Shown in pieces: positions 2,773-13,235 of a stretch of 21,706 nt of DNA. The notes beneath the pieces are model-generated. The model worked only from the letters and a program-made list of their open reading frames with translations, was not told the origin of the DNA and did no database searches. This stretch comes from a virus, in IMG/VR virus record IMGVR_UViG_3300012353_000009, positions 1 through 21,706 of that record. One strand, 5' to 3'. How positions within the stretch are numbered: position 1 is the first letter of the stretch; every line of letters starts with the position of its first letter. Position numbers and translations under genes: made by a program.

Positions 2773-2941
2773 ATTCGAGAACCTTGTTCATCAATTCTTT
2801 AGTCCGGCGGTCGGCGATAATATGGGATATGGCAATAACACCATCGTTGCATGATGTTCTACTGTAGTTTTCTACCGATTCCAGAGACGCCCCACACCGG
2901 CGGCAGAAACAACTTCCGAAATCCCAATCATGTTCCGTCAA
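2759..2941 (-). CDS. Small zinc-ribbon-like protein (60 aa)
   Basis: This 60-aa protein has a likely metal site made of His4, Cys13, Cys16 (CRRCG) and Cys31, in the order HDWDF...CFCRRCG...SC. The H-x8-C-x2-CG pattern at the N-terminus is typical of small phage proteins of unknown function. The frame begins with TTG at 2941, overlapping the stop of the long fibre gene by 14 bases. No in-frame ATG exists before residue 50, so TTG is the only start that keeps the metal ligands. It ends in TAG inside the start region of the tailspike. It sits between two receptor-binding-type genes, which might suggest a chaperone or regulator, but that is inference. Confidence 0.6.
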   Translation of the reverse strand: MTEHDWDFGSCFCRRCGASLESVENYSRTSCNDGVIAISHIIADRRTKELMNKVLECVRT

Positions 2942-5900
2942 GAGTCACCACCGTTCGATTTCCGCCCGCATCTACCGTCGCGTCGATGCGGTTTTTGGTG
3001 TCGCCGACGTCACGAATGAGCACATTGGTGGTCGCCGCACCGGACAGCTTGCCGGCAACCGCCGAGAGGATGATGCGCAGCGCCTGGCGCACCGTCATCG
3101 AGCCTTCCAGCGTGTCATCCAGGATTTCATCCACCGCCGAAGCAGCGAGAGCATTCGCATCGATCGCCGATGCCGCAAACGAGCTTGCGCCGATGGCGGA
3201 GGCACCGAGAAGCCCCAAAGTGGTAGCCGCGAGATTGACGGTGGCGCCGGGAGTTCCGACGTTGTTCCAATCGACGCCTGCCTCGCCGCCTGTCGAGACG
3301 TCCAGCGTTCGGCCGGCCACTGTCGGTTGCAACGGCGCTTCCCCCGCAACATAACTCGCCACCTCCACCTGCGGCCAGCCGGCGGTGACGACAGCCGCAA
3401 CGCTGGTGCCGGCCCACATATTCACGTTGACGCTGCCGACGACACCGCCCGGCGCTCCGGGCATCGCGCTGGCACTCGAGTGCGCCCACATCTGCAGATC
3501 GGCCATGACATTGCCGACGTTCAGCACATTCGGAACGGTGCCTCGCCATTGAGCTACATTGGCGCTGACCAGCACGTTCGTGCTGATCGAGGCCATATTG
3601 GCCTGCAGCACACCTTCGGCGCTGACATTGCTTATCGCCACCAGCCGCGTGCTCGGGGCACCGGCGGTGACGATGCCGGCGACGCTGCCGTGATTCCAAT
3701 AAACCACGTCGACCGGAATAGCGCCAGCCGTCGTGATGGATGCCACCGCCCTGCCGCCCCACGAGCTGACGTCGACGCTGCCGGCAGCCCCAGGTGCGCC
3801 GGGCATCGCGCTCGCCGAGGAGTGCGCCCACATCACCACGTCGGACTGCACATAGCCGGCGTTCAGCACGGCCGGCGTAGCGCCGCGCCAGGTTATGACG
3901 TTGACATCCGCAGCCGCACCGCCGGGTGCCTCCATCCATGATGTCGCGACAATTCCGAACTCATCGCCTGCCGAAACCTCGAACGGTAAGGCCGCAAAGG
4001 TAACGACGTTGCCGGTCTGACCGGTGATGCGGCGCATCGCGCCGTTGCAGGTGCCGGTGGTGAAAATAATGATCGACCCTTTATAGAGGTCGGTCATGCT
4101 CCGAATGTTGTTCGACGAAACCTGCGTGGTGGTGCTGCCGACGCCGGCTGATCCGCCGGTCCAGAAGATGATCTTCGAATAGGCGTCGTTTGAGATCGAG
4201 CTGTTGTCGAGGACATGCGCCGACATCTTGGCGACCAGCGACTGCACGAGCGTTCCAGACAGCGCCGCCGGAACTGACCCTAGCCACTGCCCGACGTTCG
4301 CCGAGACGAGCACGCCGGTGCCGATCGAGCCGACATTGGCGCTTACGGTGACGTTAGCGGCCGAGATGTGATCTATCATCATCACATCGGCTTTGAGCGT
4401 TCCCTGAGCACTATTGTGATTGACATAGATGAGATCGACCGGGATCGCGCCGGCTGTCGTCGGCACCGTCACCGGGGCTCCTGCCCACGTAACAACGTTG
4501 ACGCTCGGACCGCCGGCCGTCACGACGCCGGCGACGCTGCCGTGGTTCCAGTAGAGCACATCCGCCGGAATGGTCGACGCACTGCCGAGCACGGCCGGAA
4601 CCGATCCGCGCCATTGGCCGACATTTGCCGAGACCAGAACATTCGTCGCGATGGAACCGACATTGGCGCTGACTTTTATCAGCGAAACCGCCGATGCCAT
4701 CTGCGTTATCGTATGAGTCCGCGATGGGATTATGAGAAACTGGTCACCGCTGTTCGGGGCGCTGACGAAGGCTTCGTCGGTGGTGATGACTTTACCGGCT
4801 GTCGCATAAGAGCGAACCACGGCGCTCTGGCTGGCCAGGTCGCCGGTGCGGAACAGGATAAGCTGCTCGGCATAGAAGTCGGTCGAGCCGCTCGGCAGAT
4901 TGGTGATGAACGATGATGTGGTCGGACCCGGTGATCCCGCGCTGACGACTCCGCATACGAATGTCTTATACCACAATCGCTGATTGGCCGGCGTTACCGG
5001 ATCGTCGGATACGGCCACGACATTGACGCTCGGGGCATTTCCGGTGACAACGGCGGCGACTGCCGTGCCGAGCCATTGACCGACATTGGCGCTGACGATG
5101 ATACCGGCAGCTACAGCCCCGATGCTGGAATCCATCCGGCCGGCGACTAGTGCGTTTGGCGCAATACCGGCCCATTGAACCGTGTTGACGCTCAGCAGCC
5201 CGGCGTTGCCGGCGCTGGCGGTGTGGTTGACGTACATCACGTCGACGGGAACAGTACCGGCCGTTACCGGTGATGCGACCGTGGTATGTTGCCATGTCAA
5301 CACGTCGACAGCCGGTATGCCGGCATTGCCGACCGCTATCGCGGCGCTTCCCCATTGCGTCACATTGGCGACCACGGGAGCTTGAGATGCGCTCGCCCCA
5401 TGGTTGAAGTACAGCACATCAACCGGGATGGTTCCCGCCGTCGTAATGGCGGCGACCGCTTTGCCACCCCATGAGCTGACGTCGACGCTGCCGGCCACGG
5501 CACCCGGTGCACCGGGCATCGCGCTTACCGGACTGCCGGCCCAGCTGACGACGTTGATGCTGGGAGCACCGGCGGTGACAACTCCGACAACACTGCCATG
5601 ATTCCAATACACCGTATCCACCGGAATGGTCCCGGCGGTCGTGATCGAGGCTACGCTGGTGTGGTTCCACACATTGACGTCGGCGCGCATCGGCCCGGTG
5701 CCGAAGTATGCATCATAGGTCACCGGGTCGACGACCATAAAGTCTTCCCAAACCTGGAATATGCTGCTGGACGCTGACGGATAGCATGTCCATCTCAGCA
5801 ATCCTAATGTATCTACGTCGCCGGCAGATAGTGCAATCTCATAGAATGGACCGCCGCCGTCTTCATTGGTGAATACGTCTGACTTTGCCGGCCCCCAGTT

Positions 5901-6035
5901 GGCCGCATTTTTCTTAACTCGGCAACCGCCGGAAACAAGATCGGCTCCTATAACGGCAGTAAAACCATCGGACGCCTTTATGAACGGTCCGACGCCGGCA
6001 CAGACTTGTGTGTTTTGCCTAAGCCAGCGCGCCAT
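2928..6035 (-). CDS. Long repetitive virion fibre protein (1035 aa)
   Basis: This is a structural fibre or appendage protein. Residues 1-112 form a conserved N-terminal domain (MARWLRQN...VGPF...VKKNAANW...WEDFMVVDPVTYDAYFG) found in many phage proteins, probably the virion anchor. Residues 116-345, 455-600 and 708-900 are imperfect repeats of about 18-22 residues with the pattern P-x-VDV-x-x-W/Y-x-G/H-S-x-A-x-x-x-TAG, as expected for a beta-structured shaft. Two globular beta domains interrupt the shaft at about 346-440 and 612-700; both end in SGD/AGD-x-F-x-I. Residues 905-1035 are a recognisable C-terminal module with SAVDEILDD, RQALRIILSAVAGKLSGA and DATVDAGGNRTVVTLDG. The ATG at 6035 shares one base with the preceding TAA. 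The N- and C-terminal modules are recognised from phage genomes. Which virion position they occupy is unknown. Confidence 0.8.
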   Translation of the reverse strand: MARWLRQNTQVCAGVGPFIKASDGFTAVIGADLVSGGCRVKKNAANWGPAKSDVFTNEDGGGPFYEIALSAGDVDTLGLLRWTCYPSASSSIFQVWEDFMVVDPVTYDAYFGTGPMRADVNVWNHTSVASITTAGTIPVDTVYWNHGSVVGVVTAGAPSINVVSWAGSPVSAMPGAPGAVAGSVDVSSWGGKAVAAITTAGTIPVDVLYFNHGASASQAPVVANVTQWGSAAIAVGNAGIPAVDVLTWQHTTVASPVTAGTVPVDVMYVNHTASAGNAGLLSVNTVQWAGIAPNALVAGRMDSSIGAVAAGIIVSANVGQWLGTAVAAVVTGNAPSVNVVAVSDDPVTPANQRLWYKTFVCGVVSAGSPGPTTSSFITNLPSGSTDFYAEQLILFRTGDLASQSAVVRSYATAGKVITTDEAFVSAPNSGDQFLIIPSRTHTITQMASAVSLIKVSANVGSIATNVLVSANVGQWRGSVPAVLGSASTIPADVLYWNHGSVAGVVTAGGPSVNVVTWAGAPVTVPTTAGAIPVDLIYVNHNSAQGTLKADVMMIDHISAANVTVSANVGSIGTGVLVSANVGQWLGSVPAALSGTLVQSLVAKMSAHVLDNSSISNDAYSKIIFWTGGSAGVGSTTTQVSSNNIRSMTDLYKGSIIIFTTGTCNGAMRRITGQTGNVVTFAALPFEVSAGDEFGIVATSWMEAPGGAAADVNVITWRGATPAVLNAGYVQSDVVMWAHSSASAMPGAPGAAGSVDVSSWGGRAVASITTAGAIPVDVVYWNHGSVAGIVTAGAPSTRLVAISNVSAEGVLQANMASISTNVLVSANVAQWRGTVPNVLNVGNVMADLQMWAHSSASAMPGAPGGVVGSVNVNMWAGTSVAAVVTAGWPQVEVASYVAGEAPLQPTVAGRTLDVSTGGEAGVDWNNVGTPGATVNLAATTLGLLGASAIGASSFAASAIDANALAASAVDEILDDTLEGSMTVRQALRIILSAVAGKLSGAATTNVLIRDVGDTKNRIDATVDAGGNRTVVTLDGT
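3336..5690 (-). repeat. Degenerate repeat array coding the fibre shaft
   Basis: The fibre gene carries direct repeats visible at both DNA and protein level. One long module (MPGAPG...SVDVSSWGG...VDV) occurs at about 5394-5525, 3651-3812 and, more diverged, 3378-3470. A second (WNHGSV.GVVTAG.PS) occurs at about 5555-5610, 4495-4560 and 3650-3710. A third is VSANVGQWLG/RG, seen near 5060-5100, 4260-4310, 4600-4680 and 3540-3590. Spacing is irregular because two non-repeat domains are inserted. The array is protein-coding throughout, so this is an internal gene repeat and not a CRISPR or regulatory array. Confidence 0.75.
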
Positions 6036-7415: not shown

Positions 7416-7501
7416 TTGTCCCATGCCCACCTGATCGCGCCCGCCAAACCGGCAACGATGAAGCCCTTGGCGAAGATATACAACATCTCTTCGTACGTCA
7501 T
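7382..7501 (-). CDS. Small single-pass membrane peptide (39 aa)
   Basis: This 39-codon ORF begins with ATG at 7501 in a four-base ATGA overlap with the stop of the upstream 224-aa gene. It encodes MTYEEMLYIF, then a hydrophobic stretch (AKGFIVAGLAGAIRWAW, about residues 11-27), then a charged tail ending PDSKP. One transmembrane helix with aromatic residues at the interface is likely. It could be a small holin-like or DNA-ejection membrane peptide, but neither role is shown and no endolysin is adjacent. The exact coupling and the coherent hydrophobic profile are the main support. Confidence 0.55.
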   Translation of the reverse strand: MTYEEMLYIFAKGFIVAGLAGAIRWAWDKWQRSIPDSKP

Positions 7502-8172
7502 TTGTTTACTCCCGACGCGGCTGTTGCGAATAGAACACTTGCCGGCGGCGCGGCGACCTGCGTCGGCTTGGGCGCTTTGTTGAATTTATCCCATCCGGCA
7601 TCTATCTCAAAAATACGACCCCCGAATGCCGGGTTTTGTCTCGCGAGACTACGACGATATGCGCTCTGTATTTTGACGAGAGCCTTGCCGAGCGGGGCCA
7701 CATTGGGATGACTCAGATATGTGTCGGACCGATCATGCATATAATCTATCGCATCTTTAATGGGCATATCAGCGGCTTCGCGGCAAATCCCCATAAGTCT
7801 CTCAATATGATTTTCCGGCATCTCTGCAGAGATGACCCTTGATACGGAGATAAGGTCTTGCAACGTCTCTGATGCACGAACTTTGAGCTTCGGCACGATC
7901 TGTCCTAGCTGATATTCAAGACTATCGCGCGATGGTGCAGTTTTCGGGAGCTTTGCCTCTTCGATCAACGCCGCGCCGTGCTCGCGCAAGGCGGCTCTCT
8001 CCGGGTCTTCCTCTTCCTCTACCGGAGCGGCCTCTCGGGTCGAAGAGTCGATCGGTCTCTTGCTCTCGGTATCCCAAAATTCGTCCGGTGCGGGCGCCGG
8101 CGGTGGTGTCGATGGCGATGCCGTCGCGCCGAAAATCTGCGCTCGCCTGGCGCGATTGAGCAGCTCGTTCAT
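7498..8172 (-). CDS. Probable internal virion protein (224 aa)
   Basis: The N-terminus (about residues 18-60) is Pro/Glu-rich and probably disordered (STPPPAPAPDEF, then an acidic EEEED run). The rest looks helical. Residues 176-194 contain LARQNPAFGGRIFEIDAGW, matching LAKQNPAYASRLRAINEGW in the protein just upstream, so the two genes share a domain. That motif is common in phage DNA-ejection-type proteins. The gene begins with ATG in a four-base overlap with its neighbour's stop. A role as ejection or internal core protein follows from this similarity and position and is an inference. Confidence 0.68.
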   Translation of the reverse strand: MNELLNRARRAQIFGATASPSTPPPAPAPDEFWDTESKRPIDSSTREAAPVEEEEDPERAALREHGAALIEEAKLPKTAPSRDSLEYQLGQIVPKLKVRASETLQDLISVSRVISAEMPENHIERLMGICREAADMPIKDAIDYMHDRSDTYLSHPNVAPLGKALVKIQSAYRRSLARQNPAFGGRIFEIDAGWDKFNKAPKPTQVAAPPASVLFATAASGVNK

Positions 8173-9701
8173 GGCGCGCCGGCCTCGGACAGTACAAGCC
8201 CGACGCCGGGCGAAGCTACGCGGCCGGCGATCTTTGCCGCCAAGCCGATCGGCTCGGCTGCGGCGGGTCGCCGCAGAATGGCAGTCGCCGTCGCTTTTCG
8301 AAGCAGTGGGCTCATGTATGGCACCGAGGCGATGGCCTCAGCAGCCGGCAAAGCAAGAGTCGCTGGATGACCAAGAAGCGGACCTAAGAGCGACGCGACA
8401 TTACTTGCTTGCATCATACGTCCTGGTGTCCCGGAATCGGGATATTTTTTGCCGAGAACGCGCATCATTGGCGAGGAGAGGTCTTGTAACTGTGCCTGAC
8501 CCTGCGCAAATCTGCCGATCCCGGCCTTTCCTAGACGCCTGGAGTGCGCCGCAACTGCTTGGCTGAACTCCTCCGGCGAGAAAGCATCTCTGCCCCGCTT
8601 CTCGGCTGCAAACGCCGCATCACGGATTACGCTGTAGTTCGACCACCCCTCATTGATAGCGCGCAGCCTGCTCGCATACGCAGGATTCTGCTTCGCAAGC
8701 CCCTCGCGGGCAGCCGACAGAACGTCGTCAAGCGATTCAGCGAGCAGAATAGAGTCCGGGTCAGCATTCGGCCCCTTGTAGCGGGTGGAGAAGTCCGTCA
8801 GATATTCCTCAGCGTCCTTAAAGTTCTTCTTGCTGAGGGCCTGATCGAGAATCTGCCCGAAGCGCGTCGCCTCCGCAGATGGCAGATCGGCGTGCACCCT
8901 CTCGACAATAGGTGTTAGATCGCCCACCAGCTGCCGCGTATCCATCTGGAGCTTCGGTGCAATCTCATCGAAAGCCCCGCTAAGATTATTGAAGACCTCT
9001 TTGACGCCTTGGGGGCCCACCTGTCCGCTGGCCTTGGCGCCGATCGGCTTTAATGCCCGATTGTAGACGGCTACATTGGCCTGTTCGATGGCATTCGCGC
9101 GGCCACGCACGATGGCGCTACCGAGGAACGGTATGCTGGTCAGCTTCTCTTCGGCCGCAGCCGCCTTGGGACCAATGGCTTGTCCAAGCGTCGGGGTCAC
9201 ACCTTCGCTGACGAGCTCTCTCGCCGCCGGATTCACCGCTCCACTGATGATCTTGCCGGCAACCTGGCCGACAATGCTGCCGGCGGCGCCGATACCGGCC
9301 TGCTTGAGCTTGGATTGCCAGTAGTGATCCTCGTCATCTGTTTCCGGCGATGCCGCGCCGGCGATTGCGCCGGCCACCATGCCGCCGGCAAGCCCCCCGC
9401 CACCGGCGAGCGCGATCGGCAATGTCGCCGCGATCTCGCCGGCCATCTTCGCGACATCGAAACCCTCGGGCTTGCGCGCCTCGTACTCGATTTTCCGCTG
9501 CCTGATGTTTTCCTCGAGTTTCCCCAGCGGGCGCGCCATAATCCCACGGGCTTCCTGCGGCAGTGCGCGCGCCGCCATCTTCGACAAGCCATAGGCGATA
9601 TTGCCGGCGCCATAACCAAAGCTCTCGATGGTGCTCATCGGCCCTTTCTGCTTGCCGGACCAGTAGGACGCAGCTGCCGACTGCATTTCCTTTTCCGGCA
9701 T
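8169..9701 (-). CDS. Internal virion / DNA-ejection-type protein (510 aa, amber-separated N-terminus)
   Basis: This is a likely ejected inner protein. From the ATG at 9701 it has SAAASYWSGKQ at the N-terminus, two Gly/Ala-rich hydrophobic segments (about 88-117 and 135-155) and a family-like stretch at residues 165-222 (SEGVTPTLGQAIGPKA...SIPFLGSAIVRGRANAIEQ...YNRALKPIGA). The LAKQNPAYASRLRAINEGW motif follows at 335-353, and a hydrophobic C-terminal region at 434-465. The same frame continues upstream past one TAG (9723-9725) to an ATG at 9842. Without that codon the protein would be 557 residues with two N-terminal repeats. Candidate starts are 9701 (no clear ribosome site) and 9638 (AAAGGG three bases upstream, MSTIESFGYG). 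Translation could also come by amber readthrough. Family motifs are recognised; exact function is inferred. Confidence 0.75.
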   Translation of the reverse strand: MPEKEMQSAAASYWSGKQKGPMSTIESFGYGAGNIAYGLSKMAARALPQEARGIMARPLGKLEENIRQRKIEYEARKPEGFDVAKMAGEIAATLPIALAGGGGLAGGMVAGAIAGAASPETDDEDHYWQSKLKQAGIGAAGSIVGQVAGKIISGAVNPAARELVSEGVTPTLGQAIGPKAAAAEEKLTSIPFLGSAIVRGRANAIEQANVAVYNRALKPIGAKASGQVGPQGVKEVFNNLSGAFDEIAPKLQMDTRQLVGDLTPIVERVHADLPSAEATRFGQILDQALSKKNFKDAEEYLTDFSTRYKGPNADPDSILLAESLDDVLSAAREGLAKQNPAYASRLRAINEGWSNYSVIRDAAFAAEKRGRDAFSPEEFSQAVAAHSRRLGKAGIGRFAQGQAQLQDLSSPMMRVLGKKYPDSGTPGRMMQASNVASLLGPLLGHPATLALPAAEAIASVPYMSPLLRKATATAILRRPAAAEPIGLAAKIAGRVASPGVGLVLSEAGAP

Positions 9702-9833
9702 ATCATCAGGAAATTTGACATGCTAGCCGTTAGGAAACTCGACTGAGGACCAGTAGGACGCAGCTGCCGAATGCATCTGTTCTTCCGGCATGTCATCCGG
9801 AAACTGGCGGCGCTCGCCGTTAGGAAACTCTAC
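9657..9833 (-). repeat. 90-bp in-frame tandem duplication
   Basis: Two direct copies lie at about 9657-9743 and 9747-9833, offset by exactly 90 bases (30 codons). By hand count there are about 15 differences over 87 aligned bases. Each encodes a VEFPNG...FPDDMPE...M.SAAASYW module. The left copy has TAG where the right copy has GAG. Confidence 0.9.
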
Positions 9834-9842
9834 TAGCGGCAT
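9723..9842 (-). CDS. N-terminal repeat ORF ending in amber, in frame with the 510-aa gene
   Basis: ATG at 9842 opens a 39-codon frame: MPLVEFPNGERRQFPDDMPE, then EQMHSAAASYWSSVEFPNG, then TAG. The downstream continuation after the TAG (HVKFPDDMPEKEMQSAAASY) repeats the first half. This VEFPDG-type module is a familiar N-terminus of phage internal or tail proteins. The ORF is therefore best read as the original 5' end of the 510-aa gene, cut off by a GAG- or CAG-to-TAG change. It could be a free peptide, a remnant or the readthrough N-terminus. It overlaps the end of the 41-aa gene by 23 bases in another frame. Confidence 0.55.
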   Translation of the reverse strand: MPLVEFPNGERRQFPDDMPEEQMHSAAASYWSSVEFPNG

Positions 9843-9945
9843 CACACCATCCCATTGCGTACGCCATCTCCAAGACCGTCTTCACCTTGTGGTATTTCAG
9901 CAATTCCAGAAGCTGGTTAATCTTTTCTTCGGTCAGATCAACCAT
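9820..9945 (-). CDS. Small helical hypothetical protein (41 aa)
   Basis: Starting at ATG 9945 the product is MVDLTEEKINQLLELLKYHK, then VKTVLEMAYAMGWCDAASRVS. It is predicted helical and amphipathic. I choose this start because GGAG lies five bases upstream. An upstream ATG at 9969 (eight residues more, overlapping the lipoprotein stop by ten bases) is possible. No family is recognised. It sits with the lipoprotein as a two-gene insert between internal virion protein genes. Confidence 0.55.
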   Translation of the reverse strand: MVDLTEEKINQLLELLKYHKVKTVLEMAYAMGWCDAASRVS

Positions 9946-12435: not shown

Positions 12436-12870
12436 TTACTGAACCGGCTGTTGGGGGAGGATTAGCATGTTGCCCGGCTCAACCCTCCCAAAATAGTCGG
12501 TCAGCGCTTCCGGCCCCCAGTAGTCGAGATTCGTCTTGCCTGGCGAAAATGTCCAAGATTTGTCCGTCCTCCGGAGCCACGTGCCGCCCTCATATCCATC
12601 ACGACCATGATACATCGACTGCGTAGAGAAAGTAGGGTGATTTGGCTTCTTAAAATCATCTTCGAAATGGCCGGAGTGAACCTGTTGACCACGATGCTTT
12701 TTCCACCAACCACGCATATCGTAATTCTGCATATCTCGGCTGTAATCCCTGCCCTCCCATTTCCTCTGGTCAGCGATGAACCTATTGAAAGCCATCTCTT
12801 CGCTCGATGATAACGGTGTATTGTATCGATCCACCCACGACTCGCTTTCCGGATCATTGATTGATGGCAT
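12436..12870 (-). CDS. Conserved phage structural-region protein (144 aa)
   Basis: Residues about 48-90 contain YDMRGWWKKH and FEDDFKKPNHPTFSTQSMYH, followed by GGTW and FSPGKTNL. The YDMRG...FKKPNHPTFS signature recurs in a family of uncharacterised proteins next to tail and internal virion genes of podovirus-like phages. A late part (PEALTDYFGRVEPGN) also fits that family. Function is unknown. ATG at 12870 follows the previous TAG by six bases, with a GAGG ribosome site. The gene is AT-richer than its neighbours. Confidence 0.72.
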   Translation of the reverse strand: MPSINDPESESWVDRYNTPLSSSEEMAFNRFIADQRKWEGRDYSRDMQNYDMRGWWKKHRGQQVHSGHFEDDFKKPNHPTFSTQSMYHGRDGYEGGTWLRRTDKSWTFSPGKTNLDYWGPEALTDYFGRVEPGNMLILPQQPVQ

Positions 12871-12876
12871 TTGCCG

Positions 12877-13053
12877 CTACCTCAACATCAGTATCTTGTT
12901 GATCTTGAGCATCCATTTGGCGATTTCGGCGTCCTGAGCACAGCTGAAATTGCCGATGCCGTTAGCAACATCAGTCACCTTGTCCAAGGCTACCGGCATC
13001 GGCAACTCGTCGCTCTCGCCGTCGGTCGTGAATACCGCGAAGTCGAACTTCAT
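12877..13053 (-). CDS. Small hypothetical protein (58 aa)
   Basis: The product begins MKFDFAVFTTDGESDELPMP and ends AKWMLKINKILMLR. I choose ATG at 13053 because it forms the ATGA overlap typical of this operon and has AGGA close upstream. A start at 13080 would add nine residues and overlap more. No family is recognised. It is soluble, with a basic C-terminal helix. Confidence 0.62.
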   Translation of the reverse strand: MKFDFAVFTTDGESDELPMPVALDKVTDVANGIGNFSCAQDAEIAKWMLKINKILMLR

Positions 13054-13235
13054 GTCCTGCTCATTCCTTGTAGGTGCCATGCCAATGTGGAATCGGCGTC
13101 ATCGATCCATGTGTCGTAATACGACAACCATAGATCGTCGTATGTCCAATATCTCACAATCCCGCGCGAGCCGGTTCGCGAATATACCGGGAAGCCATGT
13201 GTCAGAACCGGACCGGCATCGGTTATGATCTTCAT
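13050..13235 (-). CDS. Small hypothetical protein (61 aa)
   Basis: The product begins MKIITDAGPVLTHGFPVYSR and is rich in Trp and Tyr (WTYDDLWLSYYDTWIDD around residues 30-46). The ATG at 13235 gives a four-base overlap with the stop of the large tail-hub gene; upstream codons in this frame lie inside that gene and are rejected. The function is unknown. Confidence 0.6.
   Translation of the reverse strand: MKIITDAGPVLTHGFPVYSRTGSRGIVRYWTYDDLWLSYYDTWIDDADSTLAWHLQGMSRT

Follow-up and report, generated by a model that had tools for sequence, protein, structure and literature searches.

Organization of the Interrupted Gene and Its Surroundings

The window analysed here is the whole IMG/VR record IMGVR_UViG_3300012353_000009 (21,706 bases), an incomplete genome of an uncultured phage. 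Its minus strand contains late genes of the podovirus type, including a capsid gene attributed to the Pfam family Phage_capsid_4 and a gene for a tail fibre with a pectate-lyase-like domain; the source is an uncultured short-tailed phage. One gene of the late tail/fibre cluster is interrupted by an in-frame TAG. Translated on the minus strand from the ATG at 9842, it reads MPLVEFPNGERRQFPDDMPEEQMHSAAASYWSS-VEFPNG-stop-HVKFPDDMPEKEMQSAAASYWSG and so on, with one stop codon ahead of the natural TGA. The following features were found at the locus:

8169–9842, minus strand: whole interrupted frame, a two-module leader followed by a conserved core (557 codons upon TAG readthrough; natural stop TGA at 8169–8171)
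9744–9842, minus strand: start MPL and module copy 1 (VEFPNGERRQFPDDMPEEQMHSAAASYWSS); the start matches that of the close relative and has the SD-like sequence GGGAUGG (−5.5 kcal)
9654–9743, minus strand: module copy 2 (VEFPNG-stop-HVKFPDDMPEKEMQSAAASYWSG)
9723–9725, minus strand: in-frame TAG, codon 40, opposite GAG in copy 1 and in the relative
9699–9701, minus strand: first in-frame ATG past the TAG (510-aa ORF), lacking an SD-like sequence and keeping only the helix of module 2
9636–9638, minus strand: internal ATG exactly at the leader/core border (PMS...), with the SD-like sequence AAAGGG at a short spacer
8169–9638, minus strand: conserved core, putative ejection/internal virion protein
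9820–9945, minus strand: 41-codon ORF (MVDLTEEKINQLLELLKYHKVKTVLEMAYAMGWCDAASRVS) between the interrupted gene and its upstream neighbour, with a good SD (−5.9 kcal), overlapping ATG 9842 and absent from the relative
7498–8172, minus strand: adjacent gene (224 aa), partly paralogous to the core but diverged from it, absent from the relative

The 224-aa protein is 31% identical to the core over 121 aa, including an NPA...INEGW-like motif. The 41-codon ORF separates two genes that abut in the relative.

Comparison with the Close Relative

The comparison was based on a single metagenomic consensus and one close relative, IMGVR_UViG_3300012353_000006 (loci L003, L004, L012, L016, L020 and L023), whose capsid protein is 98% identical to that of the window. 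The homologous gene (L003:15645-17234) showed 72% protein identity and was aligned over its entire length. It contains a single module, MPLVEFPNGERVDFPDDMPEEEMHSAAASYWQG, with GAG at the position of the window's TAG, and starts at the ATG equivalent to 9842, one base past the stop of the upstream gene (TGAaATG). For the core, dN/dS between the window and the relative was 0.16, which indicates purifying selection and, as far as sequence comparison goes, suggests that the gene still functions or lost its function only very recently. Copy 2 differs from the relative's module by 12.5 synonymous and 7.5 non-synonymous changes, counted over a small sample of 30 codons.

Two further features were noted outside the interrupted gene. 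At positions 12436–13080 (minus strand), a 67-aa gene ends in TAG, as it also does in the relative, and a 144-aa gene that the relative lacks begins two codons later in the same frame. This stop/start arrangement is an ordinary junction and would be a natural second site to inspect if amber readthrough were suspected. The 1035-aa protein encoded at 2928–6035 (minus strand) consists of many diverged short repeats (VSANVGQW, ITTAGTIPVDVLYWNHG), and parts of it match more than one place in the 785-aa homologue of the relative.

Tandem Leader Module

The frame from ATG 9842 contains two tandem 30-codon modules (9657–9744 and 9747–9834) that are offset by 90 bp and share 83% identity. According to TRF, this is the sole tandem array of the window, and a degenerate motif of the module gave two matches here versus 0.00 expected in shuffled sequences. 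Translation and the repeat search therefore confirmed the 30-codon duplication, the 90-bp offset and the pairing of TAG with GAG described in the earlier note. The TAG of copy 2 (9725–9723) is one base away from a sense codon. The duplication junction is TGGTCCTCAGTCGAG (TGGTCC-TCAGTC-GAGTTT).

The two copies are not evenly similar. Codons 5–9 and 25–32 are identical (0 of 39 nt differ), whereas codons 10–24 differ at 14 of 45 nt (31%; Fisher p = 6e-5 versus the identical ends). Copy 1, copy 2 and the relative's module are approximately equidistant, with 72, 72 and 69 of 90 positions identical, and at the module ends (codons 5–8, 25 and 26) both copies of the window depart from the relative by the same silent changes. 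Since the middle has diverged as much as the window has from the relative, the repeat is not a simple recent duplication; identical ends around such a middle point to reshuffling by recombination or conversion. It may have arisen by recombination of two alleles sharing their ends or may be an older repeat that was partly homogenised, and neither route needs the TAG, which is one among several changes specific to copy 2. The earlier suggestion that the change may be recent can thus hold for the stop, but not for the repeat with its diverged middle.

The FPDDM sequence of the module is kept in both copies with synonymous changes, so the module mattered, at least until recently. Modeling with AlphaFold led to a poor model (mean pLDDT 50), which was used for hints only. 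These were the strand-strand-helix (beta-beta-alpha) pattern of each leader module and the central helices; the TAG codon was placed, with low confidence, at the edge of strand 2 in the second module. No Rfam match was found around the TAG site.

Protein Family and Putative Function

When the viral collection was scanned for the module motif, only the known relative and no further two-copy case came up, with the nearest records possibly hidden from such a scan. The same motif gave three matches in Brucella among bacterial genomes, which were located in unrelated reading frames and were attributed to chance; searching bacterial genomes with a profile gave no relative either. The leader alone had no tblastn match in phage records.

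Searches with a profile of the core were more productive. The first gave the loci L021 and L022, and the second gave ten loci, including the close relative. The L021 and L022 proteins showed about 31% identity and carry an unrelated leader, MADLAQLERALRNADAAGDMDAARRLAQAIVQARSVPQEP; their homology begins exactly at PMS, that is, at ATG 9638 of the window, which identifies the leader as an exchangeable module. The N-termini of all nine family loci besides the relative are unrelated to the window leader and differ widely, and in L025 and L028 the N-terminus contains a PF01464 SLT transglycosylase domain, which the window protein lacks. The family N-terminus is therefore exchangeable, and at the sequence level the gene product is composed of an exchangeable N-terminal leader and a conserved core of about 490 residues. 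For the copy number and the residue at codon 40, which the earlier note had left to an alignment of homologues, the answer is one copy with GAG in the only close relative and unrelated N-termini in the others. The methionine at the core border (9638) is kept in L003, L021 and L022 but is absent from L025, L028, L030 and L032, which rules out a conserved internal start as a feature of the family. In addition, the protein encoded at L025:5368-8160 contains the N-terminal peptide PTFTEVDHDPFA twice, before and after its SLT domain, and represents another leader duplication in the family.

Exchange of N-termini has been described for the ejection proteins of T7- and P22-like phages (PMC8954989). 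The free exchange found here, among a small beta-beta-alpha module, a helical leader and a lytic transglycosylase, extends this known mosaicism.

The interrupted gene is syntenic with its homologue in the relative and has the same neighbours. A tblastn search of phage records gave just two weak matches, a 'DNA ejection protein' of Phage C72C1 and a 'lytic transglycosylase' of a Microcystis phage. The interrupted protein had no match in PHROGs, Pfam or NCBIfam and no structural match in the PDB to known ejection proteins, including those of T7 and P22; the Foldseek matches were uncharacterised proteins. Gene order, the SLT-bearing relatives and the two weak annotated matches suggest that the interrupted gene probably encodes a podovirus protein of the ejection/internal virion type. 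The earlier name 'internal virion gene' is thus reasonable by synteny and by the SLT-bearing family members, but it is not proven by such sequence evidence.

Interpretation of the In-Frame TAG

The core could be translated from several starts. SD-like sequences of weak to moderate strength precede ATG 9842 (−5.5 kcal) and ATG 9638 (AAAGGG, −4.4 kcal, with a spacer of 3 nt), while ATG 9701 has none (+0.6 kcal). There is also an out-of-frame ORF from ATG 9721 (28 codons, with its TGA overlapping ATG 9638), for which no support was found.

The best explanation, to which we give about even credence, is that one isolated nonsense change hit a dispensable leader while production of the intact core continues from internal starts and by leaky readthrough. 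According to this model, a leader module of 30 residues (beta-beta-alpha) was doubled; its ends are homogenised and its middle has diverged, probably through recombination or conversion. A single nonsense change in copy 2 would then separate a 39-residue leader peptide from the core. Ribosomes that re-initiate or start internally at ATG 9638 or 9701 would most likely still make the core, in smaller amounts, with some core added by background amber readthrough. The stop would be tolerated because everything upstream of 9638 is a swappable and probably dispensable add-on. The position of this swappable leader ahead of the conserved core suggests a single mutation of an ordinary kind, or an error in the consensus, rather than a new decoding system. 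The TAG allele would be natural, probably young and hypomorphic, and not a regulatory device. This model is favoured by the 557-codon frame being intact apart from one stop, the single module and sense codon of the relative, the dN/dS of the core (0.16), the varied N-termini of the family, the SD-like stretch before 9638 and the lack of recoding signs elsewhere. Against it are the missing SD at 9701, the 3-nt spacer at 9638, the internal methionine that is unconserved in the wider family, the reliance on one metagenomic consensus and the retention of FPDDM in both copies.

The main rival is an error in the consensus or assembly, in which position 9725 really belongs to a sense codon and an ordinary two-module (or mixed-strain) protein of the ejection type is encoded. 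We consider this rather unlikely. The sequence comes from a single uncultured record of 21,706 bases, a sense codon is just one base away, and identical ends around a divergent middle are the hardest place for short reads to resolve strain variants. However, the junction TGGTCC-TCAGTC-GAGTTT needs a molecule that carries it and could not result from joining two single-copy alleles, and the homologous genes of the window contain no other frame lesions, so the assembly is otherwise clean.

Programmed amber readthrough, yielding a short leader peptide and a full-length two-module protein, is improbable. The coding-like constraint past the stop (the synonymous excess of copy 2 versus the relative, and FPDD kept through synonymous changes between the TAG and the next ATG) would agree with it. 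However, the codons immediately after the TAG are few and the ends of copy 2 are homogenised with copy 1, so the constraint of copy 2 is in part that of copy 1; taken by itself, the middle shows little of it. In addition, the relative has no stop at this position, the stop is followed by CAU GUC (UAG CAU GUC) instead of the known readthrough context CAR-YYA, and the downstream RNA showed no unusual structure (z = −1.58 and 0.02). This candidate of the earlier note therefore gained no positive support, and the point mutation with downstream re-initiation fitted best of the three that it had offered.

A stable split of the gene has a slim chance; here the 39-residue peptide and a protein of 510 or 489 residues would both be functional, with coupled translation (TAG, then ATG 9701 or 9638). 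Leader modules are swappable in the family, and genes close by overlap, with translational coupling probable. The peptide, however, would stop in the middle of module 2 with a meaningless VEFPNG tail, and what is left of module 2 has stayed in frame.

It is very unlikely that the phage depends on an amber-suppressing host or on its own suppressor tRNA, as in late recoding of the code 15 type. Phages that recode their structural genes late are known (PMC9523058), and the present record covers the smaller part of its genome. Nevertheless, TAG ends 4 of the 29 listed genes (TGA 18, TAA 7), in one case also in the relative; there is only one in-frame TAG in the late region; and neither the window nor the loci of the relative yielded a tRNA gene, both records being incomplete. 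Among the window genes with a homologue in the relative, no other has a stop in its own frame. Further stops occur in short ORFs that were read as overlapping and out of frame, tentatively so for two at 815–338, inside a portal-like gene that is open in the window. A general change of code was accordingly rejected, as the earlier note had anticipated, and its suppressor-dependent gene was left unsupported. On the whole, the earlier interpretation was partly supported.

Finally, there is a very small chance that the TAG is a maintained switch: most ribosomes would start internally and make the core only, a minority would read through to a two-module form, and virions would contain both forms, which differ in the exchangeable leader. 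With a maintained TAG, the decoding of a stop codon would determine two forms of an ejection-type protein, which is rarely seen. If the TAG is ordinary, the case is a caution that a stop near the 5' end of a phage gene from a metagenome should be judged against homologues, which here place the affected part in a swappable leader, outside the conserved core.

Comparison with Known Systems

The gene resembles those for T7 gp16 and P22 gp16/gp20 in that it belongs to the late genes, lies between tail/adaptor-like and tail fibre genes and has a helix-rich core. As in homologues of T7 gp16/gp15 (PMC8954989), the N-terminus is mosaic and a lytic transglycosylase occurs in relatives. Unlike in the T7 and P22 ejection proteins, the leader of the window protein consists of a small module in which no catalytic domain is known. 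The in-frame TAG in a late structural gene recalls code 15 phages, but there is only one, TAG still terminates other genes, and a suppressor tRNA was not found in the incomplete records. Bacterial genes that are otherwise constrained have been reported to contain in-frame stops widely, without these necessarily making them pseudogenes (PMC7918605). The single stop in an otherwise constrained frame is similar to these prokaryotic cases; the present one differs in being a phage gene, known from one record, whose stop falls within a duplicated leader ahead of the conserved core.
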